NCBI GenBank assembly: GCA_903813345.2 | Contig: CAIIXF020000006.1 | Coordinates: forward strand, 37,973,348-38,037,347 | Direction of reading: 5' to 3' | DNA from: Owenia fusiformis | Taxonomy: Eukaryota; Annelida; Polychaeta; Sabellida; Oweniidae | DNA: 64,000 nt | In this document: positions 23,501 through 64,000 of the stretch, one piece after another | Layout of the letters: the number at the start of each line of letters is the position of its first letter | Numbering within the stretch: the first letter of the stretch is position 1 | Translations under genes and position numbers: made by a program | The notes under the pieces: generated by a model | What the model was told of the DNA's origin: nothing | Database searches by the model: none | Seen by the model: only the letters and a program-made list of their open reading frames with translations

Positions 23501-26500
23501 CTATTTCAAGGTTAAGTAGGGTAAGTGAACTGAATTGAATATTTTCTTACATTCTATAGACTTTCCCCAACATTACATAGACCTCAAAATAATTTTTGTA
23601 ACCCAGTTTTGCCTCCATCATTACAATGCACATTCAATATTATGGTTTCAGAAATCCAAAATGTTATACCTGAAAATTTAAAAATCCTGATTGTTCAAAA
23701 TCCTAACTTTTCAAAATCCTAAAATGTTAAACATAGAAATATCAGAATCCTGAATTTTTAACTAATAATGTTCGTAATTCCAAAACCTTAAAACGTTACA
23801 CAGACAAATTGAATGTTTTAAACCTAATAATATCTCTGTTAATTTATCAAGAAATCTATTATTATACAAAAAATATTCTATTTGAAATATCTTGAGAGCT
23901 TCTCTACCCCCATCATGTTAATGTGATTTATTAGTCAATGCAAATGCTGTTTCTCTCGTTTTCATGTCTTACATCACATTGTATTTTTTATGTCACATTG
24001 TATTTTGTAGATTGTGACATCATCCTATACAGACCTTCAAGACTACACCTATTACTTTGTTCCCGCACCCTGGTTGTCAGTGAAACTATTGAGACTTTTA
24101 CAGAATTATCCACCTCCAGGTATACAGTAACTATGATATACTAGATTTCATGATATACTGAGAAGAAATCATTTTTCTATTTCATGTTGCCTTTTTGGAA
24201 TATGTTTATCGAAATTCTCTTTGGATAAAACTAAATGGTTTCATACGAGAGGACAAAGCACTCTTGTCCTCAAAGAACTTAAATAGTTTAACAATGTTTA
24301 ATTATTGTGCATATCAAGTTTCAAGTTTCATTTTTGTTCATTTTGAGGGGATGCTGGGGATTTATTCCCTTGTGACAAGTTGTACCCAAGTGTTCCTTGT
24401 CTTTTATGGCTTACAAGAGGAGAACATATCCCAGGATTCATAGATGAGCCTATTTCCATGCAAAGATGGTTGATCTCTACATGGAGATCATCTGTGAATT
24501 CTGGGGTATTCCCTTTCTTAACCCATTCATTATTACCCTTATAATCCATGTGTGCTTACATATCTTTTTGCTCTCAATTTCCAGATGACCCGTCACTGCG
24601 AGTGCGTCTACCAGAGTGCTTAGAGACCATACTCAACAAAGCACAGGAGCCACCTAAATCTAAGAAAATACAACACTCCAATGCTAAAAATGCTGTACTT
24701 TTCGAGGCAATAAGTTTGATAATTCACATGGACAATGATCCCAATTTATTAGTCAGAGCTTGTACACAGCTAGGCCAATTTCTGCAGCATAGGGAGACAA
24801 ATTTAAGGTAAGTGGAATTCTCCCAATTTATTAGTCAGAGCTTGTACACAGCTAGGCCAATTTCTGCAGCATAGGGAGACAAATTTAAGGTAAGTGGAAT
24901 TCTCCCAATTTATTAGTCAGAGCTTGTACACAGCTAGGCCAATTTCTGCAGCATAGGGAGACAAATTTAAGGTAAGTGGAATTCTCCCAATTTATTAGAG
25001 CTTGTACACAACTAGGCCAATTTCTGCAGCATAGGGAGACAAATTTAAGGTAAGTGGAATTCTCCCAATTTATTAGTCAGAGCTTGTACACAGCTAGGCC
25101 AATTTCTGCAGCATAGGGAGACAAATTTAAGGTAAGTGGAATTCTCCCAATTTATTAGTCAGAGCTTGTACACAGCTAGGCCAATTTCTGCAGCATAGGG
25201 AGACAAATTTAAGGTAAGTGGAATTCTCCCAATTTATTAGTCAGAGCTTGTACACAGCTAGGCCAATTTCTGCAGCATAGGGAGACAAATTTAAGGTAAG
25301 TGGAATTCTCCCAATTTATTAGTCAGAGCTTGTACACAGCTAGGCCAATTTCTGCAGCATAGGGAGACAAATTTAAGGTAAGTGGAATTCTCCCAATTTA
25401 TTAGAGCTTGTACACAACTAGGCCAATTTCTGCAGCATAGGGAGACAAATTTAAGGTAAGTGGAATTCTCCCAATTTATTAGTCAGAGCTTGTACACAGC
25501 TAGGCCAATTTCTGCAGCATAGGGAGACAAATTTAAGGTAAGTGGAATTCTCCCAATTTATTAGAGCTTGTACTCAGCTAGGCCAATTTCTGCAGCATAG
25601 GGAGACAAATTTAAGGTAAGTGGAATTCTCCCAATTTATTAGTCAGAGCTTGTACACAGCTAGGCCAATTTCTGCAGCATAGGGAGACAAATTTAAGGTA
25701 AGTGGAATTCTCCCAATTTATTAGTCAGAGCTTGTACACAGTTAGGCCAATTTCTGCAGCATAGGGAGACAAATTTAAGGTAAGTGGAATTCTCCCAATT
25801 TATTAGTCAGAGCTTGTACACAGCTAGGCCAATTTCTGCAGCATAGGGAGACAAATTTAAGGTAAGTGGAATTCTCCCAATTTATTAGTCAGAGCTTGTA
25901 CACAGCTAGGCCAATTTCTGCAGCATAGGGAGACAAATTTAAGGTAAGTGGAATTCTCCCAATTTATTAGTCAGAGCTTGTACACAGCTAGGCCAATTTC
26001 TGCAGCATAGGGAGACAAATTTAAGGTAAGTGGAATTCTCCCAATTTATTAGTCAGAGCTTGTACACAGCTAGGCCAATTTCTGCAGCATAGGGAGACAA
26101 ATTTAAGGTAAGTGGAATTCTCCCAATTTATTAGTCAGAGCTTGTACACAGCTAGGCCAATTTCTGCAGCATAGGGAGACAAATTTAAGGTAAGTGGAAT
26201 TCTCCCAATTTATTAGTCAGAGCTTGTACACAGCTAGGCCAATTTCTACAGCATAGGGAGACAAATTTAAGGTAAGTGGAATTCTCCCAATTTATTAGTC
26301 AGAGCTTGTACACAGCTAGGCCAATTTCTACAGCATAGGGAGACAAATTTAAGGTAAGTGGAATTCTCCCAATTTATTAGTCAGAGCTTGTACACAGCTA
26401 GGCCAATTTCTGCAGCATAGGGAGACAAATTTAAGGTAAGTGGAATTCTCCCAATTTATTAGTCAGAGCTTGTACACAGCTAGGCCAATTTCTGCAGCAT

Positions 26501-29500
26501 AGGGAGACAAATTTAAGGTAAGTGGAATTCTCCCAATTTATTAGTCAGAGCTTGTACACAGCTAGGCCAATTTCTACAGCATAGGGAGACAAATTTAAGG
26601 TAAGTGGAATTCTCCCAATTTATTAGTCAGAGCTTGTACACAGCTAGGCCAATTTCTACAGCATAGGGAGACAAATTTAAGGTAAGTGGAATTCTCCCAA
26701 TTTATTAGTCAGAGCTTGTACACAGCTAGGCCAATTTCTACAGCATAGGGAGACAAATTTAAGGTAAGTGGAATTCTCCCAATTTATTAGTCAGAGCTTG
26801 TACACAGCTAGGCCAATTTCTGCAGCATAGGGAGACAAATTTAAGGTAAGTGGAATTCTCCCAATTTATTAGTCAGAGCTTGTACACAGCTAGGCCAATT
26901 TCTGCAGCATAGGGAGACAAATTTAAGGTAAGTGGAATTCTCCCAATTTATTAGTCAGAGCTTGTACACAGCTAGGCCAATTTCTGCAGCATAGGGAGAC
27001 AAATTTAAGGTAAGTGGAATTCTCCCAATTTATTAGTCAGAGCTTGTACACAGCTAGGCCAATTTCTGCAGCATAGGGAGACAAATTTAAGGTAAGTGGA
27101 ATTCTCCCAATTTATTAGTCAGAGCTTGTACACAGCTAGGCCAATTTCTGCAGCATAGGGAGACAAATTTAAGGTAAGTGGAATTCTCCCAATTTATTAG
27201 TCAGAGCTTGTACACAGCTAGGCCAATTTCTGCAGCATAGGGAGACAAATTTAAGGTAAGTGGAATTCTCCCAATTTATTAGTCAGAGCTTGTACACAGC
27301 TAGGCCAATTTCTGCAGCATAGGGAGACAAATTTAAGGTAAGTGGAATTCTCCCAATTTATTAGTCAGAGCTTGTACACAGCTAGGCCAATTTCTGCAGC
27401 ATAGGGAGACAAGTTTAAGGTAAGTGGAATTCTCCCAATTTATTAGTCAGAGCTTGTACTCAGCTAGGCCAATTTCTGCAGCATAGGGAGACAAATTTAA
27501 GGTAAATAGATACGCATATAGGAGTTTTACGGGAATTAAGAACTGTTGGATGTTTTGTCAGTCACAACATTGTCTTCGAACAAAAATGAAATCTTTGATT
27601 AGTCCATAATAAAAATAGGAACTAAAGTTGTGTTATTCACTGGGATGGAATTGATATCAGGAATATCCTAGGTCATAAAAGGGTAAATATTTGTTTAAGA
27701 AATCAGAAAGAGTTAAGAAAGGAGTAAGATAAAAGCCCATTTGATGAAATATAAAATTCAGCTTTTATTATATGTGAAGAGGGTGTGGGAGGGGGTCATC
27801 TCAGTGAAAAAAATGAGATGAGCATTTTGACATTACTCCATTGTGTAAACATAGACCATTTGTTTGATGGTTGTAGGTACCTTGCCCTTGAGAGCATGTG
27901 TCTACTGGCAACTTCTGAGTTCTCACATGAAGCGGTGAAGACGCATCAGGAGACTGTCATCTCAGCATTGAAGGTACACTCCCTTCAATAAGTTAAATTA
28001 TAAGTTACTGAGTGATTTGAAGTGCAATACAGGATATATTCTGCTCAAGAAATTTCGGTATTGGAACGAGACGAATATATCCTGTATTGCACTTCAAATC
28101 ATTCAATAACGTTTTTTTTTATCATGTGATCCTCTGTATTGCTACTGAGAATGTCCCCTCCGTACCAATAATTTCTGTATTGCGATGGAGATGATCAACG
28201 GGGACAATCTCAGTAGCAATACAGATTGGTACAGCACAAGAACTGACAAGAACTGAGGGCTTCATTTTACAGATCATACAATAAATATCTATATCAACAC
28301 TCCCCCAAATAAGTTTGGTAACTGGAAGTCCCCTTTTGTGTCAGTTATTGAAGCCTGTTTCATGTTTGACAATTTAAAAATTCATCAAATTAGAAAAATT
28401 TGAATGTCTGCAATTTGTGTAGTTTAAAAGAACAAGAAAGAATAAGCCTAATGAAATACATACAGTATTTGTAAGATCTCATTGAGATCTTCTTTCAATG
28501 TGCTTTTGTTTGTTGTTTCAGACGGAAAGAGATGTTAGTGTTCGCCAGAGGGCAGTAGATTTGTTGTACGCCATGTGTGATCGTACTAATGCCCAGGAGA
28601 TTGTGGCTGAGATGTTGGCCTACCTGGAGACTGCAGATTACTCAATAAGGGAAGAAATGGTAGGTTTGCTCTGTCCATTTTTACATCACCAACACAAGTG
28701 TTAAAGTCTCCAACTTTTTTGTGGACTGTAACGGTCTGCATCAGGGGTTGGTATCTGTAGCAAATGGCAGGTGGTGACATTTTGCATGTTAATGCCTTGT
28801 TATAACATATTTTCAAAGTGCTGTATTGTCATTGTATTGTCATTGTATTGTCATTGTCTTCTGCTGTTGAATGTGCAGGCATGTGGGCAGGCAGGCTTCA
28901 CATGAGGCTTCAGGCCCGTAGCCAGGATTTGCCAAGGGGGGGTTCACTTTTTGAAAATTCCAGGGTGGTTCACTTGTGACATTGTTGGACCAAAAATGGC
29001 CAAAATCACTTAAAAAGTGCTCAGAATGGTGAAAAACTGCATGATTTTGAAAGAATTTTTGGCCATCGAACCCCCCTGGCTACGGGCCTGGGCTTGTCAT
29101 CACCAAAGTTCCAGAAAAATCACTTACCTGTTCAAATGGAAATCTTTACAGATGTAAGAGCAGACTAGTGCCAAGATCTGATTAGGTTTTGGGCATGCTG
29201 GGTAAACTACATGGCGTCCATTTTGCTCTTTAACGTGCGATATTTATCACTGGGTGTCTTGTAATATTGTTAAATGGTATGAGTCTAGTTGCACAGCTTG
29301 GTCTATAATGTCATAAAGGCAATTGGCAATCTATACGATGAAAGTATGTATAACAATGAGTGATTAAATTCTGGTTGCAGGTGTTAAAGGTGGCCATTTT
29401 GGCAGAAAAGTATGCAGTTGACTACACCTGGTTTGTGGACACCATTCTCAATCTCATCAGGGTCGCTGGAGATTATGTCAGTGAAGAGGTAAGAATTTGT

Positions 29501-32500
29501 CATCCGACCGATTTAATTCAGTTGTAAAGTTAGTGAAAGTATGCTCATATTAATGTGTTTTTCAAAGAGTTCAAAATTGTGAACAAAATGATAAGGAATT
29601 TGAAAAATAAAATTCATAATTTTCGCTGGTGTGTTATCATGTAATTCAGAAAGTTCACATATTTATAAATTCTTTCCTTGTCTAGTATTTCACATAAATA
29701 TAATGATATGTATTTTTGATGATCTTTGCAGGTTTGGTATCGTGTAATCCAGATAGTAATAAACAGAGATGATGTCCAGGGATATGCCGCCAAAACAGTA
29801 TTTGAAGCTCTCCAAGCCCCAGCTTGCCATGAAAACATGGTGAAAGTTGGCGGTTATATTCTAGGTAAGTTGACCAATAGGCCGAGAATTTAACTGTAAA
29901 GCAGACTATATTGAATTTTTATAAATATAGAAGTGCAGTGTCTTGTGTCCACGCGAGAAGTGGCAATATATTGTGAAGTGTATTTATTTAGTGTTTGGAG
30001 TCAACTGCTGTGACGTATTGTTACATTTTTGTAACCCTTTGAAATAACTTATCAGGTGTTGACATTTTTCATCAGATCTAAATAATCAAATAACTAACCA
30101 CTAATATATTTCGTGATTACTTGTGAATGTGAACATTGTATTTCCAGGTGAATTTGGTAACCTAATAGCAGGTGATCCTAGATCAAGTCCCCTCGTTCAG
30201 TTCCAGCTTCTCCACTCAAAGTTCCACCTGTGTAGTCCCGCCACCAGGGGGCTCTTACTCTCAACCTATGTCAAATTTATCAATCTCTTCCCAGAAATAA
30301 AACCACAAATTCAAGAGGTAAGAATGAATTAAATAAATGATAAAGAAAATTAAAATGGTGCAAAAATTACAAATTTTGATCTACAGATATTTATTACTTA
30401 TTTATAAAAAATGGTGTGAAATGGAGGACTTATGATCCCAACTCCATGATTAAAATTTAATCCATTTAAATTCAAATTTACTCACAAATTACAAAGTTAC
30501 CTCACTTACTGATTACAAGAATGAATGTTTTTCTGTTTGCAGGTGTTTAGGAGTAACAACCAAGTGCGCAATGCAGATGTTGAACTACAGCAGCGTGCAA
30601 TTGAATATCTCCAGTTAACATCTGTCACTTCTACAGATGTACTGGTAAGTCATTTCTAAATATTTCTGATGATTTTTTATTTATCATGCCAAGGTCTGAT
30701 TTTCAAAATATTTTTAATTTCTTCATTTCAGACAATGTTGTGTTCAAAGAATCTAATTTTACCAATTTCAAATTTTTTTTAATTAAGGAGTCCTCGATCC
30801 TGGTCCATAATTCAGTTATAAGTCTGAAGACGTATTGAAACCCCTCAACATGAAAACTAAATAAATTACTGATTTATATTTGATTCCATCACGCAGGCCA
30901 CAGTATTGGAAGAGATGCCCGCATTCCCAGAGAGGGAGTCCTCCATCTTGGCCAAGTTGAAGAAGAAGAAACCAACAGCAGTGAAGGAAGAAGGGGAGAA
31001 GCCAAAGACGATGCCAACAGCACAGGTCAATTCTGGAGCTACCCCTGATGCAAATGTCAATGTTGTAAGTGTAAAGTTCTTTTGGGTTTTGTTTTGCATT
31101 TATCTCATTTGGTCAAAAGCCAACTATGTAGAATTATCATTGCTGAGAATTGTGGTGACATTTTTCTTTCAAATTGAGGTGATACTTTTCTACCATATTC
31201 CTTTCTTCATAAAATCAATTCTTAGTTTTGATAAATCAGTTTGTTTCCAAATTACCAACTAAGAGTTATCATTCTTAATTGGCTTTATTCAATATTCAAT
31301 TCAATTTTGTAAATCTCCTGAGATATACATCTTGTTGAGTAAGCTCTAAAAATATGCATGTATTAGGGATTAATGGATTTTGATTTTCAACATTCTAATT
31401 GTAGAACAATGAATTTCCATACCAGTATTTTTTTAATAGTCTATTCATTGTAGAATAAAACATATTTTCAAACTTTACATGGGGTCTTTAAAGAGCTTGC
31501 CTGTAGTCTAGTTGTCACATTTCTGCATGCAATAATAACAATGCATGCAAATACATTTAGGAACCTGTTGCTAGTTTGTTTCAAACTGACCCTCCTTCAC
31601 AGGCTCCAGCCGCCCCCGCTGCAACCTCAGATGACCTCCTGGGCCTCTCTACCCCCGTGGCAACCTCTGCCCCTCCAAATGCACTCAACAATGGCGGCCC
31701 ACCAGCCTCAGCTGTCTTACTCGATATATTTGGTGACCCAACACCTGCACCACCCACTAGTAATAATGTCGGAGCTGGAGTCGTCGATGAGGAACATTTT
31801 AATAAGTAAGTGTTGTATTGTTCCCAGTGTCGTTGTACAGTGATCTCCACAGGATTTTTTCTCAAGTGGGTGCAAAATTCTCATTTTCACAATTCACACT
31901 GAAATTGGTCGAAAATGCCAAGTTTTCATGATTTTTCTCATTTTCAAGTGGGTGAAAATGGATTTTCAGTTGGGTGCAAGCCTGTTTTTTAAAATCTCAG
32001 GTGGGTGCTGCGCCCACTTGCTTTAATGCTGGTGAGATCACTGTTGTATCATCTAAAGTAATATATATGATAACAATTGCTATGAACTGTTGATATTTTC
32101 ACTCATACAAAGTATTGAAAGGGGTGATACTTACAATGTATTTCAACGCCAGAATAAGCTGGTGACTTGCTTGAAAAAAAGTGTGAATTCCAATTCCTGA
32201 ATTCAGTGTTAAAGACAATTTTTGTCAAAATAGTTTCGTAATTCAAGTACAGTTTAGCCCATTGCTCCAAGAAATGTATTATTTGCTAAATAACCCATGT
32301 TAAATAAAAGGATGAGTGGGCTTTTTTGGTTATTTTATGTCAGACAGAGAATCCTGTCTTATTAATTAAATAACTGTTTCAATTTTTCTTTTTCAGATTT
32401 ATATGTAAAAACTCTGGTGTAATATTTGAAAATAATTTACTGCAAGTTGGTATGAAGTCGGAATACCGCCAGAACCTTGCCCGGGTAACGCTGTTCTATG

Positions 32501-35500
32501 GCAATAAGACAACTACTACCTTCGCAGCTTTTCTGACAGAGGTGTCTTACCCCGGAGATCTGAAAGAAAATATCCTTTTATAAATATGTGCATTTTCAAT
32601 TTGTGCATTTTCAATGTGTGCATTTTCAATGTGTACATTTCCAGTTGTGAATTTTCATTTTAACATGCATATTTTCAATATGTGCATTTTTAATGTGTGA
32701 ATTTCGAAGGTGTGCATTTCCAATGTGTGTATTTTCAACATGTGCATTTATAGTGTGTTTCTGTACTGAATGATAATTATTCTCCCGACTTAAAATGGCA
32801 AAAATTTGCATTAAGGAATTATTTTTCAAAATGTCTCCAGGAAGATGAGGATTAAGAATTAGAAGTTAGTTGACACTTTCTGATATGCTCATCATCAGAG
32901 TGTCAACTGGACACATTGACATGTATTTTTGAATTTGTATTTTCATGAAATCTACAGGGTGGTCAAAAAATATGGAAACCCTGTCGCCATTTTCCTCATA
33001 TCTTTGTCATTTTAGGAAATTACTCCCTAATATTTAGCACATTTGTACATCATTCAATTTCCTACCAGCCTTCCATATTTCATGACCATCAAATTGATAG
33101 TCACAATATTACAGCACTTTAAACAACATGCTCCATTGGCAAATATTGCACTTTCGGCAAACCTGCACCTATCATCTAAAATGTCCCTACCTAACTTCAA
33201 CCTGTGGTGATACACCAAAAAAGAGTGTACGAGAATAACCTCAGGACAACTGCAGACCTCAAAAAGCAGATCATCCATGTCATTCAGGCCATACCTGCTG
33301 AAAAATGTAGTCATATCATTGACAACCTGTTCAGATTTGCCAAAAATTTGTTGAGATATTAATCAATGTACAACTTTATTAAAAAAAAAATCAATGTTTT
33401 TGATTTGTAAAATTTTTGAATTGTAAGTCAATGTACAACTTCGTAAAAAAAATATTGGTAAGAACATGAAATTTTGATGAGATATTCCTTCAGTCCTTAT
33501 ATGATGAAATATTATTAGTCTTTAAATTATCCAAATGAACTACTTGAAAAATTTGTTAGAAATTTTGATGAGATATTCCTTAACTAGCATCAGGGCTAAG
33601 TGTTCAGTTGAAAGATGTTGATCCAACGATAGAAGGTGGAAGTCAAAAACAACAAATTCTGAACTCGGAGTGCATTTCAGAATTCACCATAGCACCTGTA
33701 CTTAGCTTTGAGTTCATGTGAGTAATATTGTGTCACCTTATGGCACCTTGACTTTCAGTTAATGGCACCCAAACTTGATTTCAATTTTAAGCACCTGTAC
33801 TTAGCTTTGAGTTCATGTGAGTAATATTGCATATTGTGTCACCTTATGGCACCTTGACTTTCAGTTTATGGCACCCAAACTTGATTTCAATATGAAGCAC
33901 CTGTACTTAGCTTTGAGTTCATGTGAGTAATATTGTGTCACCTTATGGCACCTTGACGTTCAGTTAATGGCACCCAAACTTGATTTCAATATGAAGCACC
34001 TGTACTTAGCTTTGAGTTCATGTGAGTAATTTTGTGTCACCTTATGGCACCTTGACTTTCAGTTAATGGCACCCAAACTTGATTTCAATATGAAGCACCT
34101 GTACTTAGCTTTGAGTTCATGTGAGTAATATTGTGTCACCTTATGGCACCTTGACGTTCAGTTAATGGCACCCAAACTTGATTTCAATATAAAGCGCCTG
34201 TACTTAGCTTTGAGTTCATGTGAGTAATATTGTGTCACCTTATGGCACCTTGACTTTCAGTTAATGGCACCCAAACTTGATTTCAATTTTAAGCACCTCT
34301 ACTTAGCTTTGAGTTCATGTGAGTAATTTTGTGTCACCTTATGGCACCTTGACGTTCAGTTAATGGCACCCAAACTTGATTTCAATATAAAGCACCTGTA
34401 CTTAGCTTTGAGTTCATGTGAGTAATATTGTGTCACCTTATGGCACCTTGACTTTCAGTTAATGGCACCCAAACTTGATTTCAATTTTAAGCACCTCTAC
34501 TTAGCTTTGAGTTCATGTGAGTAATTTTGTGTCACCTTATGGCACCTTGACGTTCAGTTAATGGCACCCAAACTTGATTTCAATTTTAAGCACCTCTACT
34601 TAGCTTTGAGTTCATGTGAGTAATTTTGTGTCACCTTATGGCACCTTGACGTTCAGTTAATGGCACCCAAACTTGATTTCAATTTTAAGCACCTGTACTT
34701 AGCTTTGAGTTCATGTGAGTAATTTTGTGTATGGGGCAATTTGTGCGTACAGGTTGACGTTTCGATTTTATATGCATTGCTTAAAGTCTCCATTCTGCTA
34801 CCCCATGGCACCTAGACTTTTTTTAATAGCACCCAAACTTGATTTCAATTTTAAGCATCCTAACTTAGCATTCTGTTCAGGTGAGTGCATCACCATTGTA
34901 TTCATATAATGAAATTAATTAGTAATGCCTTGGTCACATTTGCTCCAATTTTCTCTACGACACCCGGCCGATTGAGTATTTTGTTCAAAACTGAACACAA
35001 TGTTGAACAAAACACTCAGGCGGGCGGGCGCCGGCCGATGGATCGGAGCAAATGTGACCAAGGCATAATTTGAAATTTACCTCTGAATAAATCCTTTGCA
35101 ATTTATTACTTATAATCAAATTGATTTTATTGTAAAATCCATCTCAGGAATCAGAAATTCATTTTACAATTGTTTTACTCCCTTTTACAATAAGTTTTAT
35201 GCAGTATTTACTATTCATGTGAATTTTAGGCATTATGTATATATATATATATGTGTGTCTTATGTCTTACCATATTCTCTGTAATTACTTCCTGGGACTC
35301 TTCGAAAATTCAAAAAACCTCATCCTGACCATAATAAGTGCCCCGTTATGAAAGAAGTCAAAAGCTCCCAGTAATTTTATGTATGACAGTTTAAGGCATT
35401 ATTTAGATATTTTAATGCCTCACTTACATGGGTTTTATATCGTATTTACCTGTGTTTTGCATTATTTTAGAAACAACGGTGCCCCGCAAGCATTCAGAGT

Positions 35501-38500
35501 TAAGCTACCTTTGACGGTGAATAAGTTCCTAACTCCGGCAGTAATGAATTCTGAAGATTTCTTCAATAGGTGGAAGTCACTTTCAAGGTAAGGTTTCACT
35601 TATTAAAAATTTATTGAATACCATAGCATTGTTATGGTCTCCAGCATGTTTGTGGATGGTGTACGGTGGTTGGTGTTTGGTGGTCGGGGCCTATAATAAA
35701 TTACAGGTGGTGCCATTTTGCCAATTGTCATTATGGCGATATACCCTAGTAATATATCATATGAAAGCTTATATTTCAAGAAGTTAATGAATTGTTGGAT
35801 GTAATATATCATATGAAAGCTTATATTTCAAGTGGTTAATGAATTGTTGGATGTAATATATCATATGAAAGCTTATTTCAGGAGGTAATGAATTGTTTGA
35901 TATTTTCAGCCCTGGACAAGAATGTCAGAAAATCTTCAAAGCACAACATCCCATGGACACTGAAACCATTAAACTGAAGGTATCGTAACAAACATACAAT
36001 AAAAACATACAATGCATTGTACAAAAAACTTGTGAAGTGGAACGCCTACCTATGTGCGTTGAGAGTAAATCTGTACTGAAAATAACTTGATCAAAGATGT
36101 TGAAATCATTTATTTAGTTCATTGTGTCTAAACTCCATATTTGCAGTTTTCAATTGACTCGATGTTAATTGGCTTAATGTAATGGAACCTGTAACACTTC
36201 CAATTGGAACACTTTAACCTCTTGAATCCCAGGTTCCAAAATCGGTTGAAACCAGAGATTTTTTCATTTTTGCCAGCTTTTGACATTTTACTTTATACAT
36301 ATACAACAGATGGTGCTCATTTTAGTAAAATTAGATGTAGATCATTTCTAGACATTTTAAAACAATTTTTGTGTAAATTGGGTGAAAATTGTTCAAGAAA
36401 GAGCAACTTAGTGAAAAGTTTTGTGACGGATTTTCTCATCACGAGAAATCTTGTCACCCTGGGTAGTCGAGAGGTAAAAGAGGTCTCAGATGTGATTTCA
36501 TTTGACAAAATTCAGTATTTATGTAGTCTTATTTTCTAATAACATAAATAATTGAATATAAATTATGATTTCAGTTACTTGGATTTTGCTTGGGTGTACT
36601 TGATGGGGTTGACCCTAATCCAGTGAACTTTGTGTGCGCATCTATATTACACACGAGGAATCAACAGATTGGCTGTCTCGTTAGATTGGAGCCCAACAAC
36701 CAGGCACAGGTACATGGAAACTTTCTTCGTATAATTGTATGGATTATGTTAGGGGTCAAATGATTGCATGGTATTTTATTATGTTATATACTGTAGATTA
36801 TGATGAAGCCCTAGGGTCTATTATTGGCTTGAAATGGGCAAAGTTAATAAGGAGCGGCTTATAGTTCTGTATCTTTGAACATTTTTTGTTCCCATTGATT
36901 ACATGTTGTCTTTTTCTTGATTTTTACTGTAGTTTTGTAGTTTTTGCCTTGAATTCCTTTAATTAGTTGTTCTTAATAGTTTATTCTTCTATTTTTTACT
37001 AGACCTGCACTTTTAACCATTTTTTATAATTATTATTTATAATTATTATTTTTTATTTGTTTTTATCTGCATGCATGTTATACTTAAAACCAATGAAGAA
37101 ATAAATTATTGGTTTTATAAAACATTGAATACTGTATTCATCTTTAATTTGGCGAATCAAAATTGTAACCATTTTAAATTGTCATCAAAATACTCATTTA
37201 GATTATTAAAAAAAGATTTACGAAGAGACCCCTTGAAAAACACCAGATTGAATAGACAACAGTATGTCCAGTATCCCCAAAAGTCATATAACGCCAAATT
37301 AAAGCGGAATACAGTATTCATTAATTTTTACGTTTATTAACAGATGTTGAGACTAACTGTCAGAACCAGCAAAGATGATGTTTCGAGAATAATGGCAACT
37401 CTTCTCGAGACGCAACTTTAAAACTTTAATATGATCTCCTTTGTCTTGTGGTAGTTTCTTTATCTCGTTACCTATCACTTCTGGTGCACCATTAGAGCTA
37501 GAGACATTCTTAGTTATGAAAATTCTTAAAATGTGTTGCTTGGCAGGCCCATAGCCAGGATTTGCCAAGGGAGGTTCAGTTTTCAAAATTTTCCAGGGGG
37601 GGTTCACATTTGACAATTTTGGCCCAAATATGGCTAAAATCACTTGAGAAGTGCTCAAAATGGTGAAAACCGCATGATTTTGAAAGAATTTTTGGCTGGG
37701 GGGGGGGGGTTCGCCGAACCCGGCCTGCTTGGCCAAACATAAACCAGATAACTCAAAATTTCCCTTTTATCCTTTAAGATAATATCAATGTCTGACTAGG
37801 ACATGAATCCCTCTCATAACTGACTCACACTTAAGCAATTAAATTATAAATACAAAATAGATGGCTCAAATAGTTCCGCTACCTTAAGCCAAACAAATCC
37901 AGTCTGGGAAGTTACTGAAATTACATAACTAAGAATGTCTGTATTTCTTCTCTGCAGCCCATGACAGAATTCACATTGCTTTCACATTTATACATATAGT
38001 TATTTCACATTTTCACATTGCTTTCACATTTATAACATATAGTTATTTCACATTTTCACATAACCATCCAGGTTTCACATTGGTTATTAATTTTCACATT
38101 TATAACAAATAATCCCTTCACATTTTCACATAACCATGCACTGACTTTTCAATTAAAAAATATTATTATGTGTGTATTGAAAATCATTAATTGATGGAAT
38201 ACTTTTTTGTTATTTGTACATGCATAATAGTCCAGTCATTTTTCTTAATCACCAATTAATTAGCTTTGATCATCTGCAGCTTTGCTAATTAAACCAATTA
38301 AATCAAAAATAATTATTTTGATGCTCCTCAATAAAACATACAGTATAACGATTAACTGTATTTGTTCTAATTTGCTCCCTTTTGAATTAATTAAGCACTA
38401 ATATTCATAGCAAATGAGGAACTCATTAGCTAATTAGCCTAATTAACATCTTGCATCAAATCCCCTCTCAATAAACTAGATATACTATTGATTTAAAATT

Positions 38501-39078: not shown

Positions 39079-39483
39079 TAAAACAGACACATACACCAAT
39101 TGAAAGCTGAAATGAGTGAGATACCAATTGAAAGCTGATATAATGAAACCATTGGGAACCGAAATATGTCATCCAGACATTTAACAACATGGACTATGAT
39201 GGAGTAGTGCGTCTAGAGAATTGCAAACAGAAGAATTTGAAAGTACTTCAGGTTCATACCTGAGCCTCACAATGGATTCCAAATAAAAAATGAAGGCAAG
39301 GACTAACTATAGGACAATAAGATTAAAAAGGCTTAAATGCTAGAAAGCTACATGATGATGAATGTGGAAATGGAAACAATTAGAAATGATACAAACACTG
39401 AAAACTTCCATGCAGGGTTCAGTGCTAACATTGAAAACAGTTTGGCCCATATTGCCCATATATAGGCAACCAGTTTTTTCCAA

Positions 39484-39612
39484 ATGGTTGCCTTTGGCAA
39501 AAGAGGAAATGCCCCATAATTCATAGGTGAACCTATCTCTATGTAAAGAATACTAAAGATGAACATGTATGTAAAGAAAACATTTATACATTCTGGGGTA
39601 TCCCCCTCCCTC
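39484..39612. mobile_element. Short palindromic MITE in AP2A 3' region
   Basis: The left GAGGAAATGCCCCATAATTC and right CATTCTGGGGTATCCCCCTC pair as imperfect inverted ends, matching the family at 10020-10485 and 24417-24525. Confidence 0.45.
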
Positions 39613-39665
39613 TTCACTGGCAATGAACTGTTAATTCTGAATCTTATTCTCTGGGTGGTTGTTAC

Positions 39666-40533: not shown

Positions 40534-40966
40534 GTTGTTACACTGAGTGAGCCATTTGAAAACCAATTACTTGCTTCCATGTGGACCTGTTCTATCACTG
40601 GTCTACATCATTATGCAAGTATTTATTCCGAGGGGTCGTTATATGGGTGATTCCAGTGATATTTTGTTAAGTTTGGAGACATTTGAGGGGAGTATTTGTA
40701 GCACCAGAATTCTGAGTGTTTAGTCATTTTTGGCTCAGATGATGAGCTTATTATTGAATCGTTGTATCCTATAAAATTTGAGCTGTAATAAACTGTACAC
40801 ATTATGTCAGTCTACCTTTTTGGGGACCCTTGTACCTCATAATGGTAGACCCCTTCCTGCCATTTAAAGAAGGGATGGGGGGAAACTAGTGTATTGCCCA
40901 TTGTTCCTAGTTAGGCATAGTGCAGCCCTTAGGTTTATTGTACATTGTGCAGTGATTTACTTTTCA

Positions 40967-41080
40967 TCATGGCTGTCTTAATGATGATCATGGCTGTCTT
41001 AATGATGATCATGGCTGTCTTAATTATGATCATTGCTGTCTTAATGATCATGACTGTCTTAGTGATGATCATGGCTGTCA
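40967..41080. repeat. Tandem GATGATCATGGCTGTCTTAA
   Basis: Five units of about 21-24 bp with small indels. Confidence 0.8.
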
Positions 41081-57100: not shown

Positions 57101-57135
57101 GACAATTTCATTGTGACTGATGCAGACGATAACAA
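45128..57135 (-). CDS. Divergent forkhead-domain transcription factor
   Basis: The coding exons in transcript order are 57135-57004, 55759-55621, 55292-55160, 54934-54889, 54597-54451, 53219-53100, 49630-47188 and 45351-45128, 1127 residues. All junctions are GT-AG and phases agree. The forkhead (winged-helix, DNA-binding) domain covers about residues 106-180: KPPFTYGELIEAAL, LSDIYNWI, FSYYRDP, then recognition helix LGWQNGIRHRLS and wing GEPGKGGVWRI. The usual NSIRHNLS is NGIRHRLS here; the base-contacting N, R and H are kept. A basic block KFRVRRRRVP (212-221) may aid nuclear import. Residues 240-1054 come from one 2.4-kb exon: acidic and serine-rich first, then Gln/Pro-rich, probably disordered. 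I cannot assign a Fox subclass. The start could instead be the second Met, eight codons in. The last exon could splice at GTGAGC (45231) instead of ending at 45128. Confidence 0.88.
45370..46075. repeat. Minisatellite CAGACTCTCATGTAGAGTATG before the last forkhead exon
   Basis: About 20 units of 30-37 bp are built on GACACAATAGTTCAGACT and CTCATGTAGAGTATG. On the gene's strand the array ends about 18 bp before the acceptor of the last exon (45352), and its words (AACTATTGTGT) run into the acceptor region. No exon sequence is repeated. Confidence 0.9.
46193..46486. mobile_element. TTAACCTCTTGAATCCCAGG MITE, copy 2
   Basis: The ends are TTAACCTCTTGAATCCCAGG and CCAGGACATGAAGAGGTTAA, with TTAA at both edges. 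The interior matches copy 1 in AP2A intron 20. TTAA ends suggest a piggyBac- or Kolobok-like origin. Confidence 0.8.
46974..47022. repeat. Hairpin with two TGACGTCA words
   Basis: TGTGACGTCAGCGGG and CCCGCTGACGTCACA are perfect inverted arms around a loop of about 19 bp. Each arm carries the palindromic CRE octamer TGACGTCA. It lies in the last intron of the forkhead gene, so any regulatory role is speculative. Confidence 0.6.
49800..50075. repeat. GCTGTGACAGCG repeat cluster 1
   Basis: Clusters of CGCTGTGACAGCG, CGCTGTCGCAGCG and CGCTGTGAGAGCG words, each nearly palindromic, are interspersed with GGCTGGATCAATT(T/A)CAGCAAC words. It is in the large intron of the forkhead gene. GC-rich words stand out against AT-rich surroundings. 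Confidence 0.7.
50705..50935. repeat. GCTGTGAGAGCGCTGTGACAGCGG tandem cluster 2
   Basis: About ten units of 12 bp (GCTGTGAGAGC, GCTGTGACAGC) are arranged in 24-bp pairs, closely related to the cluster at 49800. The strand frames are open only because the period is a multiple of three. Confidence 0.85.
51022..51129. mobile_element. Possible decayed CAGGCCC-family MITE
   Basis: The ends CAGGCCCTGAGCCAA and GCTGGCTATTGGCCTG and the C-rich interior recall the 28911 family, but no target duplication is visible. Confidence 0.35.
51270..52618. mobile_element. TACTGTAAAACGGG MITE hosting a nested foldback
   Basis: The left end TACTGTAAAACGGGTAATTT and the right end CAATACCCGTTTTACAGTA are inverted repeats bounded by TA. 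The interior is made of TTTTAGCG and CCCGGTTTATTTTA words. A foldback element (51553-52401) has inserted in the middle. Confidence 0.75.
51553..52401. mobile_element. 849-bp foldback element, copy 2 (inverted)
   Basis: It has the same ends as copy 1 at 18367 (CACCCTATGCAGACAGAGCC) and the same length. The asymmetric centre is reversed, so it sits in the opposite orientation. The 5-bp direct repeat GATTT lies at 51548-51552 and 52402-52406. High similarity between the copies implies recent activity. Confidence 0.88.
56351..56645. mobile_element. Relative of the CCACTGG...GATCCAG MITE
   Basis: It shares the GGGCCTTTTGGGGCATGATT and GGATCCGCCAG words with the element at 1131-1413. The left end is weak. 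It is in intron 1 of the forkhead gene. Confidence 0.5.
56864..56911. repeat. Perfect 21-bp-arm hairpin
   Basis: CTTATCCCGTTCCCGGACTA and its exact inverse TAGTCCGGGAACGGGATAAG surround a loop of about 5 bp. GCGCAC words flank both sides in the same orientation. It is about 90 bp downstream of the forkhead first-exon donor. Confidence 0.75.
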
Positions 57136-57536
57136 TTACATCACTTCTCCGGATTGTGGTCCTTGCTGGGTTTGAATTTTCCAATCAATTATTTCTTATA
57201 TTATGGACGAGTCAGGCACATTTCTTTACCTTTTAAAATGTGTTTGAATAATTCATTTAAAACTTTAGTTAGCATCTTTTATAGTATTAGAAGCGTTTGA
57301 GTTCTTTACGCGTTTGTTTATTATGTTTGTTTACAGTATGAGCACATGGCTAATTTGCATAATTTTCCCAGAAGCCAAGTTGATTGTGAGCCGCCACATA
57401 TCCGGTGACGTCATCAAAACTTGCTCAACGGAATATTTTGCAAAACAACATGATTTCTTTCACAAAAAACCTGCAAAATACGTGATACCCTGACCAGAGT
57501 GATACCAAATTCCGCCTACCTTTAGTAAAGATCATC
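57136..57536. promoter_or_regulatory. Bidirectional promoter interval, forkhead gene and ILRUN
   Basis: The two start codons face away from each other with 401 bp between. A palindromic CRE, TGACGTCA, lies at 57406-57413, preceded by an ETS-like ATCCGG at about 57400-57405. An ATTTGCAT octamer-like word lies at 57354-57360. No TATA box is obvious at a sensible distance from either start. Shared control is inference. Confidence 0.5.
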
Positions 57537-60500
57537 ATGGATGTTGACAGCGACTTTGATTCGAATCTGTTGCAACAATTCAGCTCAATGGGGACTCAAG
57601 ATAAAGACGTCCTGATTGCTGAGTTCCAAAAACTTCTTGGGAATCAGCTGAATCCTGCAGGATGTGCTTTCTTCCTAGATATGAACAATTGGTGAGATAA
57701 ATTATAACTCTTTGACCTGTAGGCTCTATAGATGTTATGGGCAATCTGTCTGTATAGGAAAACAGGTGTAATATTTTGCAGAAGCATAGCGCTATTTTTC
57801 TAAGTAGTACGCCACCACGGGAGCCCGCATGGGAGCTAGGTGCATTCATGCACCCTCTGGTTCTCTGAGGATCGTGTTGGCCCCAGGGGTGCATAACGTG
57901 CAATGTAAATTTATCAAATTTAAGAAATGCTGAAAAGTCCGGATCTGATGTTTTTGACTTTTCTCCCAAGATCTTACCTCAATCTTGAAAATTCTTTCAC
58001 CACTGGATAGCGGGACCAAAAATCTTCAAAATGAACAGTAATACAGTAATTATGTGTAATCGTTGCAGATAAGACGAAATTGCATTTCTGACCGGTCTTC
58101 TTGACATTTTCGCTGACCTAATTTCAAGTGCGCATGCGTTGCATAAATCAGTGTGATGATCACGTGATGTGACGTAATTTGATGATCACGTGTTGTAATG
58201 TTTTCCAATAACCAGTTGGTAAAACTGATTCTTGATTCAATATGTTTGTTATCACGTCTTGTAACTGTTCTGGCTTCAAATCAAATCCAAACTTTGGTTT
58301 TATGTTATGCGAATAGAGATCATTTATTTCTTCCATCGAATACATGATGGTCGAATGAATGATATAAACTCTGTATAATATAGATGGCAGCAATATTCAA
58401 TGGCTACTCTCGTCAAATCATGTGAGAATAGAAGCCGCCATAAAGATTTTGTGAACAGTAGCGACAAACGGCGATTTTGCTACAAAATTAGCACAATTCA
58501 ACCTTCTACAACCACAAAGCTATGGTAATTTTTTGTATAAATCATCAATGTATCCATTTTGTTTATATTTCTCTGTAAATGACGCAGAGATTCTAAGCAG
58601 AAGACTAAAATAAAGTGAACCGTCAAAAATAATCAAGAAAAACTTAGATTGGCATGAATTTACAAGGATAAACACCGCCTCTAATGCAAGTCCTTACGAC
58701 AATCCAACGCATTAGAGGCGGTGTTCACCGTCTACATGGGAGCAAGAGTTGAGAGTAGCAAAAAAGCGTTCAGGGGGGTCTGTGGGGTTCTCCCCCTAGG
58801 AAATTTTGAAATTTGGTTGTATTTGGAGCGAATTTGAAATCATCATCTACACTTATGTGTACCCAGCATACCGGGTGTACCCCCATAAATGTGGGGTTAT
58901 TATCCCACCGAACAAAGTTCGAGAGGGATATAGGAAAGCCGTCCGTCCGTCTGTCCGTCCGTCTGTTTGTCCGGGTGATAACTCAAATACCGTTTCACGG
59001 ATTTGATTCAAATTTTATAGGCTTATGCCTTATGGGTGTAGGACCTCTGCTCGAGAAGGAATTTTCAATATGGCCACTGAATTCAAAATGGCCGCCATTT
59101 TTCATAAAATATGTAATCTTTAATAACTCAAATACTAGTTTGCGGATTTGGTTCAAATTTTATATGCTGATGCCTAGGGACAACGGAGTGTCGCACAAAA
59201 AGAGATTTTCAAGATGGCCGCTTAATTTCAAAATGGCAGCCATTTTTCATAAAAATATGTAATCTTTGATAACTCAAATACCAGTGAATGGATTTGGTTC
59301 AAATTTTATATGATGATGCTTAGGGACACAGTAGCTATGTTCAACAAAAAATTTTCAAGATGGCCGCTTAATTTCAAATTGGCGGCAATTTTTCGTAGAA
59401 AACGTAATCTTTGATAACTCAAATACCAGTGAACGGATTTGGTTGAAATTTTATATGATTATGCCTAGGGACACAGTAGGTCTGTTCAAGAAATAATTTT
59501 CAAGATGGCGGCTGAATTTCAAGATGACGCCCAATTTTCGTAAAAAACGTAATCTTTGATAACTCATACACCAGTGAACGGATTTGGTTCAAATTTTATA
59601 GGCTTATGCCTTATGAGTGTAGGACCTCTGCTCAAGAAGGAATTTTCAATATGGTCTCTCAATTCAAAATGGCCGCCATTTTTCGTAAAAAATGTAATCG
59701 TTGATAATTCAAATACAAGTTGACGGATTTGGTTCAAATTTTATATGCTGATGCCTAGGGACAAAGGAGTTTTGCACAAAAAGAAATTTTCAAGATGGCC
59801 GTTTAATTTTAATATGGCGGCCATTTTTCGTAAAAATATGTAATCTTTGATAACTCAAATACCAGTGAATGGATTTGGTTCAAATTGCATATGATGATGC
59901 TTAGGGACACAGCAGCTATGTTCGACAAAAATTTTTCAAGATGGCCGCTTAATTTCAAAATGGCGGCAATTTTTCGTAAAAAACGTGATCTTTGATAACT
60001 CGAATACCAGTGAACAGATTTGGTTGAAATTTTATATGATTATGCCTAGGGACACAGTAGCTCTGTTCAAGAAATAATTATCAAGATGGCGGCTGAATTT
60101 TAAGATGGCGGCCAATTTTCGTAAAAAACGTAATCTTTGATAACTCATATACCAGTGAACGGATTTGGTTCAAATTTTATATGATGATGCCTAGTTCACA
60201 AAACTAACTTTGTGCCAAATTTCATGCTTCTATCACAAAGTGCACAAACATTTCAACATTTACACTAGCTATAATAAGCATAATATGTTTTGTTCGGTGG
60301 GATTTGCTACTCCGTGGAGTTGCTGTTTTTCTAGTTTTGAGGATTTTTAATATTTAGGACATTTGTTACTCAAAATAAATATTTTGAGAAATAAATGTCC
60401 TAACTATCAAAGAACCTCAAAATAACCCCACATTTATGGGGGTAACTGGGTGCTACGCCCATGTCAGGAACTTGCCATGATGTTCTGGAGTCATGCTCAG

Positions 60501-62479
60501 ATTTCATGGTTTGTTGAATCATGGGCTTTCAATTAGATAAATCATTCTAGTTGAAAGCCCAATATGGTTGAATTCTGCCATCTGTGTCTCAATTTCGCTT
60601 TGCCATCCTGACTTTGCGGTTTGCGTTGTATAGCATTGGTGCTCTCTTTCAATCATAAAATCATGAAAAGTACTACCGTGCTCTCCCCATATTGAAATCT
60701 CTGAGATGCAGCACTCCATGTATTTTATAAAACCAAAATGCTCCTCAGTGCAACTAGATGCGCCTCTTAAAATGTTACAATTAAAAAAAAGAAATTCTAA
60801 AATGTTGCACAAAATCCTAAAATGTTGCACACAAATTACAAAATCATAAATTGTTGCACAAAAAGTTACAAAATGCTAAAATGTTGCAATTAAAAAAAAT
60901 AACAAAATCCTCCACACTAAATTATCCTGGGGAGATCACGGTACTACATATGTAATCCAAATGCCACTTGTACCAGCCAAAAATGCTCAGATTGGCAGGT
61001 GTTCATATTTTGATGAACTTGTAAGCACGAAGCCTATGCTTGAAAAATGTGACCAAAAAGTGTTCACATTGACTGTTGTTCAGGAATCCAGAGGTATTAG
61101 GATAAATCAGGTTTTCCTGTATTTGATAAAAATTTTGATTTTTCAGGAACCTACAAGCTGCAATATGTTCGTATTACGAGTATGAACAACCGACAGCTGA
61201 TAAGCTACCACAGATGACTTTTGTCAAAGACATCACCATTGGAGAGGGGGAGTCTGTGCCTCCAAGAACTGCTTTCACTAAAACATGGAGAATCATGAAC
61301 TCAGGTACTACACTACTCTTCATAAGTTTGGTAACTGGAAGGCCTTATTGGATAGCGTATGAAAGACTGTAAATGTTGGCATCTTAGCTTGTATTTGCGA
61401 ATGCTACTGGTGCAACCTACTATTTTATGACCTACTCAAATATGAAAAGTACCTGCCACTATTCCATTCTGTTTTGTTCATGTATAACAACTAATTAATG
61501 ACAAAGATTAATTTCTTTAAATTGCCAAACATAAATAGGCTTTGATAAGTGACCCAGAAGATGACCTCCTGTTGCCAAAGTTACGGAGGGGGTTGTACAT
61601 TTTGCATCTAACCTTTAAATTCTCAAATATTTCACTTTGACCCTTGAAAATTGGCTAGGGCCTAGGGGTAATGCGATTCTGCTTCTACATCACAAATATA
61701 TTCAAATTACTTTACTTTGAATTACAAAAAATTGAATTATATACAAAAAAACATTTTTACTCGTCTATAAAATTCTGAAATGGCAAAATCCTGTCCTTTG
61801 GTGATTGCCCTATACAAATTGCCAACAGCTCAGGCCCGTAGCCAAGGGGTTCGAGCAAACCGCCCCCTTTTCAAAAAATCTTTCAAAATCATGCAGTTTT
61901 CACCATTCGGAGCACTTTTTTTAGTGATTTTGGCCATTTTTGGACCAGAATTGTCACAATTGAACCCCCCCTGGAATTTTTCAAAAAGTGAACCCCCCTT
62001 GGTAAATCCTGGCTCAGGCCTGCAGCTGATGGTGCCATCTATAAGCTAATTGGTATGAATTTAGGAACTGAAGTGCTTCTAGTCTGACCATTACAGGAGA
62101 TTAAGAGTGACAGCAACTTATATCTATAGAGGTTTGCTGTTAGTCCAAATATATTACACCCCCTCCCTCTAGGTTCTATTTTTCAGTTGACCCATGAGCA
62201 TAAATTCAAATGAAAATCAAAGTGATTTATACAAATTTTCGTAGAACTCAGATTACTAAAACGTATCTTCTTCTTTTTCAGGGGATGAAGCCTGGCCACC
62301 CGGGTGCTCTTTAAAATTTCTTTGTGGTGACCAGTTTGGTCATCGTGATCGTGCCATGGCAAATGCCCTTCAGCCCGGAGCTGTTATGGACATTAGTGTA
62401 GATATGTCAAGTCCTGCAAATGCGGGGATGTTTCAAGGACAATGGAGGATGACTACAGCTACTGGAATGTTCTTTGGTG
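57537..62479 (+). CDS. ILRUN: ILRUN (C6orf106-like) protein, 5' part
   Basis: Three exons are in the window, 57537-57691, 61147-61304 and 62282-62479, giving 170 residues plus one base. Human ILRUN is about 298 residues, so the remainder lies beyond 64000. The N-terminus (MDVDSDFDSNLLQQFS, KDVLIAEFQKLLG, LNPAGCAFFLDMNNWNLQAA) is the UBA-like region of the family. Residues about 75-170 (ITIGEGESVPP, TKTWRIMNSGDEAWPPG, GDQFGH, GMFQGQWRMTTATGMFFG) form most of the FW (NBR1-like, four-tryptophan) domain. In vertebrates ILRUN restrains IRF3-dependent antiviral and inflammatory transcription; that is known for the family, not shown here. The exon 3 donor (62480) is inside a minisatellite. Confidence 0.95.
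58196..58336 (-). pseudogene. Fragment of a RecQ-like helicase
   Basis: Within a short open frame, FGFDLKPEQLQDVITNIL then LPTGYWKTLQ resembles the Q-motif and Walker A region of RecQ-like helicases (LKPEQ...I..IL...LPTGYGKS). The Walker A glycine is replaced (GYW for GYG) and residues before LPTG are missing. Nothing else of the helicase is present. It is probably a relic inside a non-autonomous repeat in ILRUN intron 1. A chance match is possible given the short length. Confidence 0.4.
58668..58728. repeat. Hairpin in ILRUN intron 1
   Basis: The arms AACACCGCCTCTAATGC and GCATTAGAGGCGGTGTT are perfect inverted repeats around a loop of about 26 bp. Confidence 0.75.
58907..60320. mobile_element. 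ATCCCACCGAAC element with about eight internal tandem units
   Basis: The left end ATCCCACCGAACAAAGTTCG and the right end TTGTTCGGTGGGAT are inverted repeats, followed on the left by CCGTCCGTCTGT simple sequence. About eight units of 140-160 bp carry GATAACTCAAATACCAGTGA, GGATTTGGTTCAAATTTTAT and AAGATGGCCGCTTAATTTCA words. It belongs to the family at 14200-15370. Longer inverted flanks (CCCCCATAAATGTGGGGTTA near 58880-58900 and its inverse near 60425-60445) enclose it, so it may sit inside a second element. Confidence 0.7.
61831..62022. mobile_element. MITE of the CAGGCCCGTAGCC family, copy 3
   Basis: The ends CAGGCCCGTAGCCAAGGGG and CCTGGCTCAGGCCTG are flanked by the 5-bp direct repeat CAGCT (61826-61830 and 62023-62027). 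The orientation is opposite to the 28911 copy. It is in ILRUN intron 2. Confidence 0.78.
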
Positions 62480-64000
62480 GTATGTGCGATTTAAAGGGGA
62501 AATAAAGGAATGTTCTTTAGTAGATCTAGTATGTGCTGTTTAAAGGGGAAATAAAGGAATGTTCTTTGGTGGTATGTGCGATTTAAAGGGGAAATAAAGG
62601 AATGTTCTTTGGTGGTATGTGCAATTTAAAGGGGAAATAAAGGAATGTTCTTTGGTGGTATGTGGTGTTTAAAGGGGAAACAAATGAATGTTCTTTAGTA
62701 GATCTAGTATGTGCTATTTAAAGGGGAAACAAAGGAATGTTCTTTGGTAGATCTAGTATGTGCTATTTAAAGGGGAAACAAAGGAATGTTCTTTGGTGGT
62801 ATGTTCTATTTAAAGGGGAAACAGATTAATGTTCTTTGGTGTTATGTGCTATTTAAAGGGGAAACAAATGAATGTTCTTTGGTGGTATGTGCGATTTAAA
62901 GGGGAAATAAAGGAATGTTCTTTGGTGGTATGTGCTGTTTAAAGGGGAAACAAATGAATGTTCTTTAGTAGATCTAGTATGTGCTATTTAAAGGGGAAAC
63001 AAAGGAATGTTCTTTGGTAGATCTAGTATGTGCTATTTAAAGGGGAAACAAAGGAATGTTCTTTGGTGGTATGTTCTATTTAAAGGGGAAACAGATTAAT
63101 GTTCTTTGGTGTTATGTGCTATTTAAAGGGGAAATAAAGGGAATGTTCTTTGGGGGTATGTGCTATTTAAAGGGGAAACAAATGAATGTTCTTTGGTAGT
63201 ATCATACTACATACTGTATGTGCTATTTAAAGGGGAAACAGATGAATGTTCTTTGGTGGTATGTGCTATTTAAAGGGGAAACAAATGAATGTTCTTTGGT
63301 GGTATGTGCTGTTTAAAGGGGAAACAAATGAATGTTCTTTCGTGGTATGTGCTATTTATAGGGGAAACAAATTAATGTTCTTTGGTAGTATGTGCTATTT
63401 AAAGGGGAAAAAATGAATGTTCTTTGGTAGTATCATACAACATACTGTATGTGCTGTTTAGAGGGGAAACAAATGAATGTTCTTTGGTGGTATGTGCTGT
63501 TTAAAGGGGAAATAAAGGAATGTTCTTTGGTGGTATGTTCTATTTAAAGGGGAAGTAAAGAAATGTTCTTTGATGGTATGTGCTATTTAAAGGGGAAACA
63601 AGTGAATGTTCTTTGGTGGTATTTGCTGTTTAAAGGGGAAACAAATGAATGTTCTTGTTGGTATGTGCTATTTAAAGGGGTAACAAGTGAATGTTCTTTG
63701 GTGGCATTTGCTGTTTAAAGGGGAAAAAATGAATGTTCTTTGTTGGTATGTGCTGTTTAAAGGGGAAACAAATGAATGTTCTTTGGTGGTATGTGCTGTT
63801 AAAAGGGGAAATAAAGGAATGTTCTTTGGTGGTATGTGCTATTTAAAGGGGAAACAGATGAATGTTCCTTGGTGGTATGTGCTATTTAAAGGGGAAACAA
63901 AGGAATGTTCTTTGGTGGAATGTGCTATTTAAAGCGGAAATAAAAAATGTTCTTTGGTGGTATGTGCTATTTAAAGGGGAAACAAGTGAATGTTCTTTGG
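62464..64000 (+). repeat. ILRUN exon-3 donor minisatellite: about 35 copies of exon end plus 5' splice site
   Basis: Exon 3 ends at 62479 in GGAATGTTCTTTGGTG, followed by GTATGTGC. A 43-bp unit, made of these last 16 exon bases plus about 27 bp of intron (GTATGTGCTATTTAAAGGGG and AAACAAA), is repeated to the window edge. I count 35 occurrences of the exon-end word including the exon's own. Units are more diverged than in the AP2A exon-8 array. Some carry insertions (TAGATCTAG, TATCATACTACATACTG), and a block of about four units at 62676-62870 recurs at 62951-63130. Reading through the first donor reaches TAA within the first unit (AAA TAA). Confidence 0.95.

Follow-up and report, generated by a model that had tools for sequence, protein, structure and literature searches.

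The stretch of DNA analysed here (the window; 64,000 nucleotides, positions C6:37973348-38037347 in the 498-Mb assembly of the annelid Owenia fusiformis) is animal DNA of about 35% G+C that encodes AP-2 alpha (AP2A), a forkhead-like protein on the minus strand and exons 1-3 of ILRUN. The AP2A model comprises 949 amino acids without a stop and matched 6owt_A over its full length (1517 bits); its closest relative is the annotated Owenia fusiformis protein P0001, which is 99% identical and differs from the model solely by 14 amino acids at exons 15/16. ILRUN was recognised by a match to N_BRCA1_IG, and two exons of the forkhead-like gene match Forkhead, under Pfam's own cut-off. Altogether 29 donors and 29 acceptors were placed in the window, with the forkhead-like gene covered in part only. 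Three introns, AP2A introns 8 and 18 and ILRUN intron 3, begin with minisatellite arrays that open inside the coding exon, so that the exon's own end is copy one of the array, exactly where the original prediction for this DNA had claimed them. The relevant features, including arrays recovered with Tandem Repeats Finder (TRF), are as follows.

11504-39084, plus strand: AP2A gene, 22 exons.
24585..24807, plus strand: AP2A exon 8, from the gene model and identity to P0001; the final 69 nt make up the first copy of array 1.
24739..27505, plus strand: array 1, 34 copies of an 82-bp unit, over the AP2A donor 24807/24808.
32583..32749, plus strand: array stopping short of an exon; it starts 14 nt beyond the last base of AP2A exon 17.
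33594..33717, plus strand: AP2A exon 18, from the gene model and P0001; the final 27 nt make up the first copy of array 2.
33691..34730, plus strand: array 2, 11 copies of a 99-bp unit, over the AP2A donor 33717/33718.
34805..34886, plus strand: diverged 12th copy of array 2, outside the TRF row.
35749..35901, plus strand: array stopping short of an exon; it ends 8 nt ahead of AP2A exon 20.
62282..62479, plus strand: ILRUN exon 3, from the gene model, N_BRCA1_IG and the annotated protein P0241; the final 16 nt make up the first copy of array 3.
62464..64000 and beyond the window, plus strand: array 3, 43-bp unit, over the ILRUN donor 62479/62480.

The unit of array 1 is composed of 69 exon and 13 intron nt, that of array 2 of 27 exon and 72 intron nt, and that of array 3, whose basic period was set by hand, of 16 exon and 27 intron nt. 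Array 1 includes three copies of 78 bp, ends in a partial copy and contains 33 identical, exact AAGGTAAGT donors. At all three arrays the annotated Owenia proteins P0001 and P0241 show, at the protein level, that the first donor is used (P0241 reads FFG-D-IIW across the array-3 junction), and reading past this donor leads to a stop within a few codons. Two other arrays near splice sites, 32583..32749 and 35749..35901, stop short of the exon, again as had been described.

Copy 12 of array 2 ends TTCAG/GTGAGT, a 9.0-bit donor, and copies 1-11 end TTCAT/GTGAGT (5.1 bits). The idea that copy 12 is a fossil of an ancestral arginine is insecure, as the 117 homologs vary here: 65 have R, 14 have M, 12 have T and the rest have other residues. 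A harmful effect of concerted evolution on the AP2A protein was likewise considered and rejected: the exon copy of array 1 has one private residue, T331, where 117 of 117 homologs have N, and this rate of private residues is not raised (1/21 in the exon copy vs 17/446). Within array 3, at 63183-63473, a near-palindromic insert of 17 bp is present in two copies (63183 and 63414), and an insert of 6 bp containing GATC in others.

Donor-like sites are dense in arrays 1 and 3 (12-14 per kb) compared with 1.2 per kb in other AP2A introns. Together with the 33 exact donors of array 1, this would be expected if the arrays were functional, for example as ladders of U1 sites that guard long introns against premature polyadenylation or tune splicing. 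However, the donors of array 2 are weak, with 0.81 sites per kb, and the arrays at acceptors described below would need another function; we therefore consider a functional role very improbable. It is also conceivable that the assembly has collapsed or multiplied repeats, since an exact second block follows array 3: past the window, 1393 bp (773-2165 of locus L009) are 100% identical to window positions 62608-64000, either because the block was duplicated recently or because the assembly contains it twice in error. Copies within the arrays nevertheless differ by variants common to particular copies, and by score the same anatomy recurs, with different units, at another 28 loci, 19 of them donor and 9 acceptor, so that an artefact as the general explanation is hardly credible.

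The window is a repeat-rich outlier, its 24 arrays covering 12.9 of 64 kb as compared with 4.7% of an unselected 200-kb tract of contig C1 (TRF score 40). A 16-nt exon end is copied in the adjoining intron at 3 of the 29 donors and 0 of the 29 acceptors, yet this simple test says little, because arrays fill much of the window and random points are often positive (15.7% of 1500 random window points). When the 24 arrays are placed at random, 0.48 donor-straddling seeds are expected vs the 3 seen (P ~0.013); with 48 arrays, obtained at a lower TRF score, 0.32 are expected at donors (P 0.0043) and 0.64 at any junction (P 0.027). These placement tests are post hoc and concern a repeat-rich window, in which the 3:0 ratio of straddled donors to acceptors is not significant. 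In the unselected C1 tract, arrays cross no donor at any of three scores, and the acceptors crossed number 1 among 81 predicted exons at score 20, 1 among 126 at score 16 and 2 among 172 at score 14. In the window, on which it was trained, the home-made exon finder behind these predictions returned exact modelled exons in 23 of 34 cases (score 20) and in 24 of 53 (score 16); it is rough, and the per-exon count from the tract is a loose upper bound only.

The original prediction regarded the three arrays as instances of a general phenomenon tied to the donor, and we examined its generality by counting overlapping motif triples over the whole genome; these are counts of triples and not of arrays. 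Three AGGTRAGT motifs spaced 30-60 nt apart occur 1152 times vs 501 for the reversed motif (2.3x), and spaced 61-91 nt apart 1146 times vs 579 (2.0x), the second count not being independent of the first. The pattern CAGGTAAGT has 133 matches vs 53 reversed. A single AGGTRAGT is no commoner than its reverse, neither in the C1 tract (11 vs 16) nor in the masked window (4 vs 6). The acceptor motif TTTKCAGG is also found in triples, 480 vs 108 reversed; as a single motif it occurs 32 times vs 14 reversed in the C1 tract. Arrays were counted by eye from C1 onward, and the first 100 matches listed for each pattern contain 6 arrays for AGGTRAGT at 30-60 nt, 11 for CAGGTAAGT and 21 for TTTKCAGG. The donor-motif and acceptor-motif lists overlap in one stretch, C1 0-11.98 Mb, which contains 6 arrays of the former kind and 2 of the latter, and donor arrays yield more matched rows per array than acceptor arrays. 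A greater number of donor arrays is thus not demonstrated.

In order to determine whether these arrays are joined to exons, we read the edges of 24 donor arrays (6/6 from the 30-60 nt list, 11/11 from CAGGTAAGT and 7/7 new ones at 61-91 nt) and of 20 of the 21 listed acceptor arrays, C3:6492485 being left out. An edge was called exon-like if it showed an open frame with an acceptor and a home-made exon score of at least 20, the minimum acceptor score being 3 in one batch and 2 elsewhere. Single-motif controls consisted of 10 AGGTRAGT sites (of 11; one near the tract end was dropped) and 32 acceptor sites, all from the C1 tract. The first copy closes an exon-like frame in 19 of 24 donor arrays vs 3 of 10 single sites (p 0.010, odds ratio 8.9), and 9 of 20 acceptor arrays lead into such a frame vs 3 of 32 single sites (p 0.0045, odds ratio 7.9). 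In acceptor arrays it is the last copy that is in frame and joined to the exon body. Splice-edge arrays therefore form a genome-wide class in Owenia fusiformis, found at both donors and acceptors, and a bias restricted to donors, as originally stated, was ruled out once the acceptor edges had been examined. What remains of the proposed bias is that donor arrays are anchored to an exon more often than acceptor arrays (p 0.029).

Donor arrays without anchoring are L035 and L063, which are intronic, L068, which has no exon, and L062 and L070, which fall below the score (18.2 and 17.8). A score of 20 also leaves out three acceptor loci that we judged real, L037 (2OG oxygenase), L039 (terminal exon) and L055 (P-loop), and lets in the doubtful L036 and L049. 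L055 (C3:2522786-2523641) is a long array whose end was not reached and whose unit consists of an acceptor and the P-loop GESGLGKSTLINS, which we take to be septin-like. At locus L030, a two-copy, 122-bp duplication (782-1023, 96% identity) lies over the acceptor of a tetraspanin-like exon, the same exon that bears the donor array.

The peptides of 17 donor arrays (all except L035, L058, L062, L063, L068, L070 and L073) and of 8 acceptor arrays were compared with Pfam. At E <=1e-3, 8 of the 17 donor-array peptides were named (Muted, Rieske_4, NIF, Kringle, PF15874, Pkinase, B56 and Fasciclin), as were 3 of the 8 acceptor-array peptides (7tm_3 of class C receptors, HMA and C2H2), whose exons directly follow the array. 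The Kringle, Pkinase and 7tm_3 matches are under Pfam's own cut-off, as short pieces are. The part of the named exon that lies inside the repeat is small at some loci, merely 6 and 4 nt at the donor loci L034 and L072 and 6 and 5 nt at the 7tm_3 and HMA loci. At least a dozen genes carry arrays of this kind, with their protein apparently unimpaired; outside the window, splice choice is predicted from open frames.

The shape of the unit bears on how such arrays arise. For the final statistics, unit lengths were set manually to the basic period. Eighteen of them are distributed 6/6/6 modulo 3, and therefore the copies are not selected as codons. In the 19 anchored donor arrays the exon share of the unit has a mean of 0.66 (t-test p 0.015; Kolmogorov-Smirnov (KS) p 0.075), and the intron part is at most 14 nt in 12 of 19, where 6.4 are expected if breakpoints are uniform (P 0.007). 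Such crowding would be expected if a mutational mechanism at 5' splice sites, involving U1-bound nascent RNA, R-loops or replication-transcription conflict, placed duplication breakpoints at the donor, and the more frequent anchoring of donor arrays and the surplus over single motifs point in the same direction, as do KS p values of 0.007 for the first 15 arrays and 0.017 with the three window arrays included. On the other hand, the KS test weakens at 19 arrays, the partition of the unit does not differ clearly between donor arrays and the 10 acceptor arrays (mean exon share 0.475; p 0.07), and acceptor arrays are common as well. Repeats seeded by R-loops would have a G-rich non-template strand; the G-skew of the units of arrays 1, 2 and 3 is +0.09, -0.05 and +0.62, only one of the three being G-rich. 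Repeats make up a mean of 27.8% of introns in the window, and both intron ends are below this mean: 442 of the 2800 bp within 100 nt of the intron start, ~300 of which come from the three straddling arrays, and 171 bp within 100 nt of the intron end. We therefore regard a mechanism seated at the donor as doubtful.

At four loci (L033, L056, L062 and L066) the next copy starts at donor position +3, and exon and donor share AAGT or GAGT. Microhomology-mediated duplication would fit this pattern, as would selection favoring junctions at which a good donor is restored, and the observation is suggestive only. In a scenario that combines these observations, minisatellites would be born at splice sites, with a breakpoint within ~14 nt of the 5' splice site and AAGT/GAGT microhomology with exon words during transcription; they would be kept as the exon-proximal site wins, and exon ends would then evolve in concert with intronic copies. 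We find this scenario rather unlikely as a whole. G-skew is not a trait common to the units of the three window arrays, and slippage or microhomology combined with tolerance fits better. An excess of arrays at donors, which had been proposed as the genome-wide check, cannot separate a mutational mechanism from tolerance, because "first donor wins" likewise predicts an excess over acceptors or random points.

Enrichment at both edges, and donor units that are mostly exon-derived, could also be obtained if exonic DNA were simply a better seed owing to its higher G+C or its transcription, with exon-derived arrays surviving at exon edges only and splice-site biology having no part in their birth. 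Acceptor units are only about half exonic, which does not favor this explanation, and we think it quite improbable.

The reading we prefer, with a probability of roughly 0.6, is that duplications over exon edges persist because the exon-proximal splice site is used at both ends. Tandem duplications of ~25-100 bp would arise in and around exons, and selection would remove most of those involving coding sequence. Duplications that span an edge would survive, since one complete splice site stays on the exon body, the first donor at one side and the last acceptor at the other, and the extra copies become intronic. As expected under exon definition, splicing at either end would take the exon-proximal site, and the intronic copies, probably neutral, would then expand and homogenise like an ordinary minisatellite, with the coding exon end remaining a member of the array. 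The retention of the exon-proximal site is the rule common to both kinds of arrays, because the in-frame copy is the first one in donor arrays and the last one in acceptor arrays. Tolerance explains why both kinds of edge carry arrays, and why a gene can have one without being harmed.

Several observations weigh against this reading. By itself, tolerance would not produce a surplus over single motifs, and the odds ratios given above need something more; the surplus may stem from exon composition, from transcription or from an unrepresentative control of 10 and 32 sites in one tract. It is also sensitive to the score chosen and to the small size of the control. With a threshold of 18 the surplus holds, as it does at 20, with 15/17 vs 4/10 for the first 17 donor arrays (p 0.014) and 12/20 vs 5/32 for acceptors (p 0.0013); at score 22 it weakens, to 11/17 vs 3/10 (p 0.089) and 6/20 vs 3/32 (p 0.064). 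At the same E-value threshold, 9 of 17 donor peptides have no Pfam family, namely L030 (Tetraspanin at 0.058), L032, L033, L057, L060 (best at 0.043), L066, L067, L069 and L071, nor do 5 of 8 acceptor peptides, L037 (2OG-FeII_Oxy at 0.0016), L039, L043, L045 and L047; the L033 peptide had no match in PDB either. Neither the crowding of breakpoints near the donor nor the exon-rich donor units are predicted by tolerance. A mutational bias is possible. Since the surplus over single motifs is not explained by tolerance itself, a higher birth rate either in exons or at splice sites is likely, with exonic DNA perhaps favored as seed.

Other features of the window were recorded alongside. The 14 extra residues of annotated AP2A correspond to 31561-31602, as if exon 16 began 42 nt upstream, which is an alternative acceptor or a difference between models. 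AP2A intron 17 (32570-33593) starts with ATATCCTTTT and finishes with TTCCTTAACTAGCATCAG, both ends being supported by the annotated protein (KERLSVQ), and is presumably a U12-type AT-AG intron, judging from the U12 consensus. A remnant of a Mos1-like mariner element at 3175-4424 on the minus strand has two open frames; the upstream frame matches HTH_48 and Transposase_1, and the second matches no Pfam family. At 5966-7565 there are 41 copies of a 36-bp unit with several frames open on both strands. An Rfam search at gathering scores gave no match.

Single cases of this kind are already in print for human CBS. In human CBS, splicing uses the first donor of a 31-bp variable number tandem repeat (VNTR). 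This repeat, c.1444_1467+7(16_21), resembles array 1 in that, as we interpret the notation in the available excerpt, its unit lies over the donor with 24 exonic and 7 intronic nt in 16-21 copies (PMC2630376). Its traits recur at the three window loci, where exon end and donor are both part of the unit, copy 1 is coding and the first donor is the one represented in the annotated protein. The CBS repeat is a known polymorphism at one human locus, whereas the worm has many loci in one genome, seen in one assembly. The excerpt also describes CBS 844ins68, in which the intron 7/exon 8 junction is duplicated, splicing takes place at the distal site and a normal mRNA results; the text calls this site a "donor", and we follow its cited title, which names the 3' splice site (PMC2630376). 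That duplication has two copies only, whereas the worm arrays have three or more. In young human duplicated genes, internal tandem repeats at exon-intron boundaries accounted for 27 intron modifications kept upon inspection, according to the part available (PMC2812944). These are likewise minisatellites at exon-intron boundaries, but they led to novel introns or alternative splicing, whereas the three window arrays extend an existing intron and leave the protein unchanged.

Models of intron birth were expected to predict different products from the arrays, and this is what we find: the exon head is copied upstream at none of the 29 window acceptors, and the acceptor following array 3 sits outside the array. 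Intron gain by tandem duplication of exon sequence was reportedly described by Zhuo in 2007. Duplication of exon sequence with splice motifs, as discussed by Lehmann 2010 in the portion available (PMC2891723), shares with the worm arrays the tandem duplication of splice-motif sequence, but in a gained intron both ends come from the duplicate, whereas the worm arrays contain copies of one intron end only, with the opposite splice site located beyond the array. Annelid metallothionein genes have first-intron minisatellites, with no placement over the donor in the available text (PMC12783039). The accessible parts of PMC3152781, PMC8096271 and PMC12783039 hold no junction counts of repeats, those of PMC7277093 and PMC11975116 no splice-junction repeat terms, and that of the review PMC3488318 no further case; no genome-wide account of splice-edge arrays was found among the records listed from the literature searched, whose range lies outside most subscription journals.

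Through these findings, what had been a curiosity of human genetics, the CBS repeat, becomes a countable class within a single genome. Every array amounts to a naturally occurring competition assay (in array 1, among 33 identical donors) in which the exon-proximal site alone gives the protein, and the rule for choice among equal splice sites thus becomes testable in native genes. In Owenia fusiformis, conserved coding ends are joined to fast-evolving repeats, which may also confuse gene prediction.

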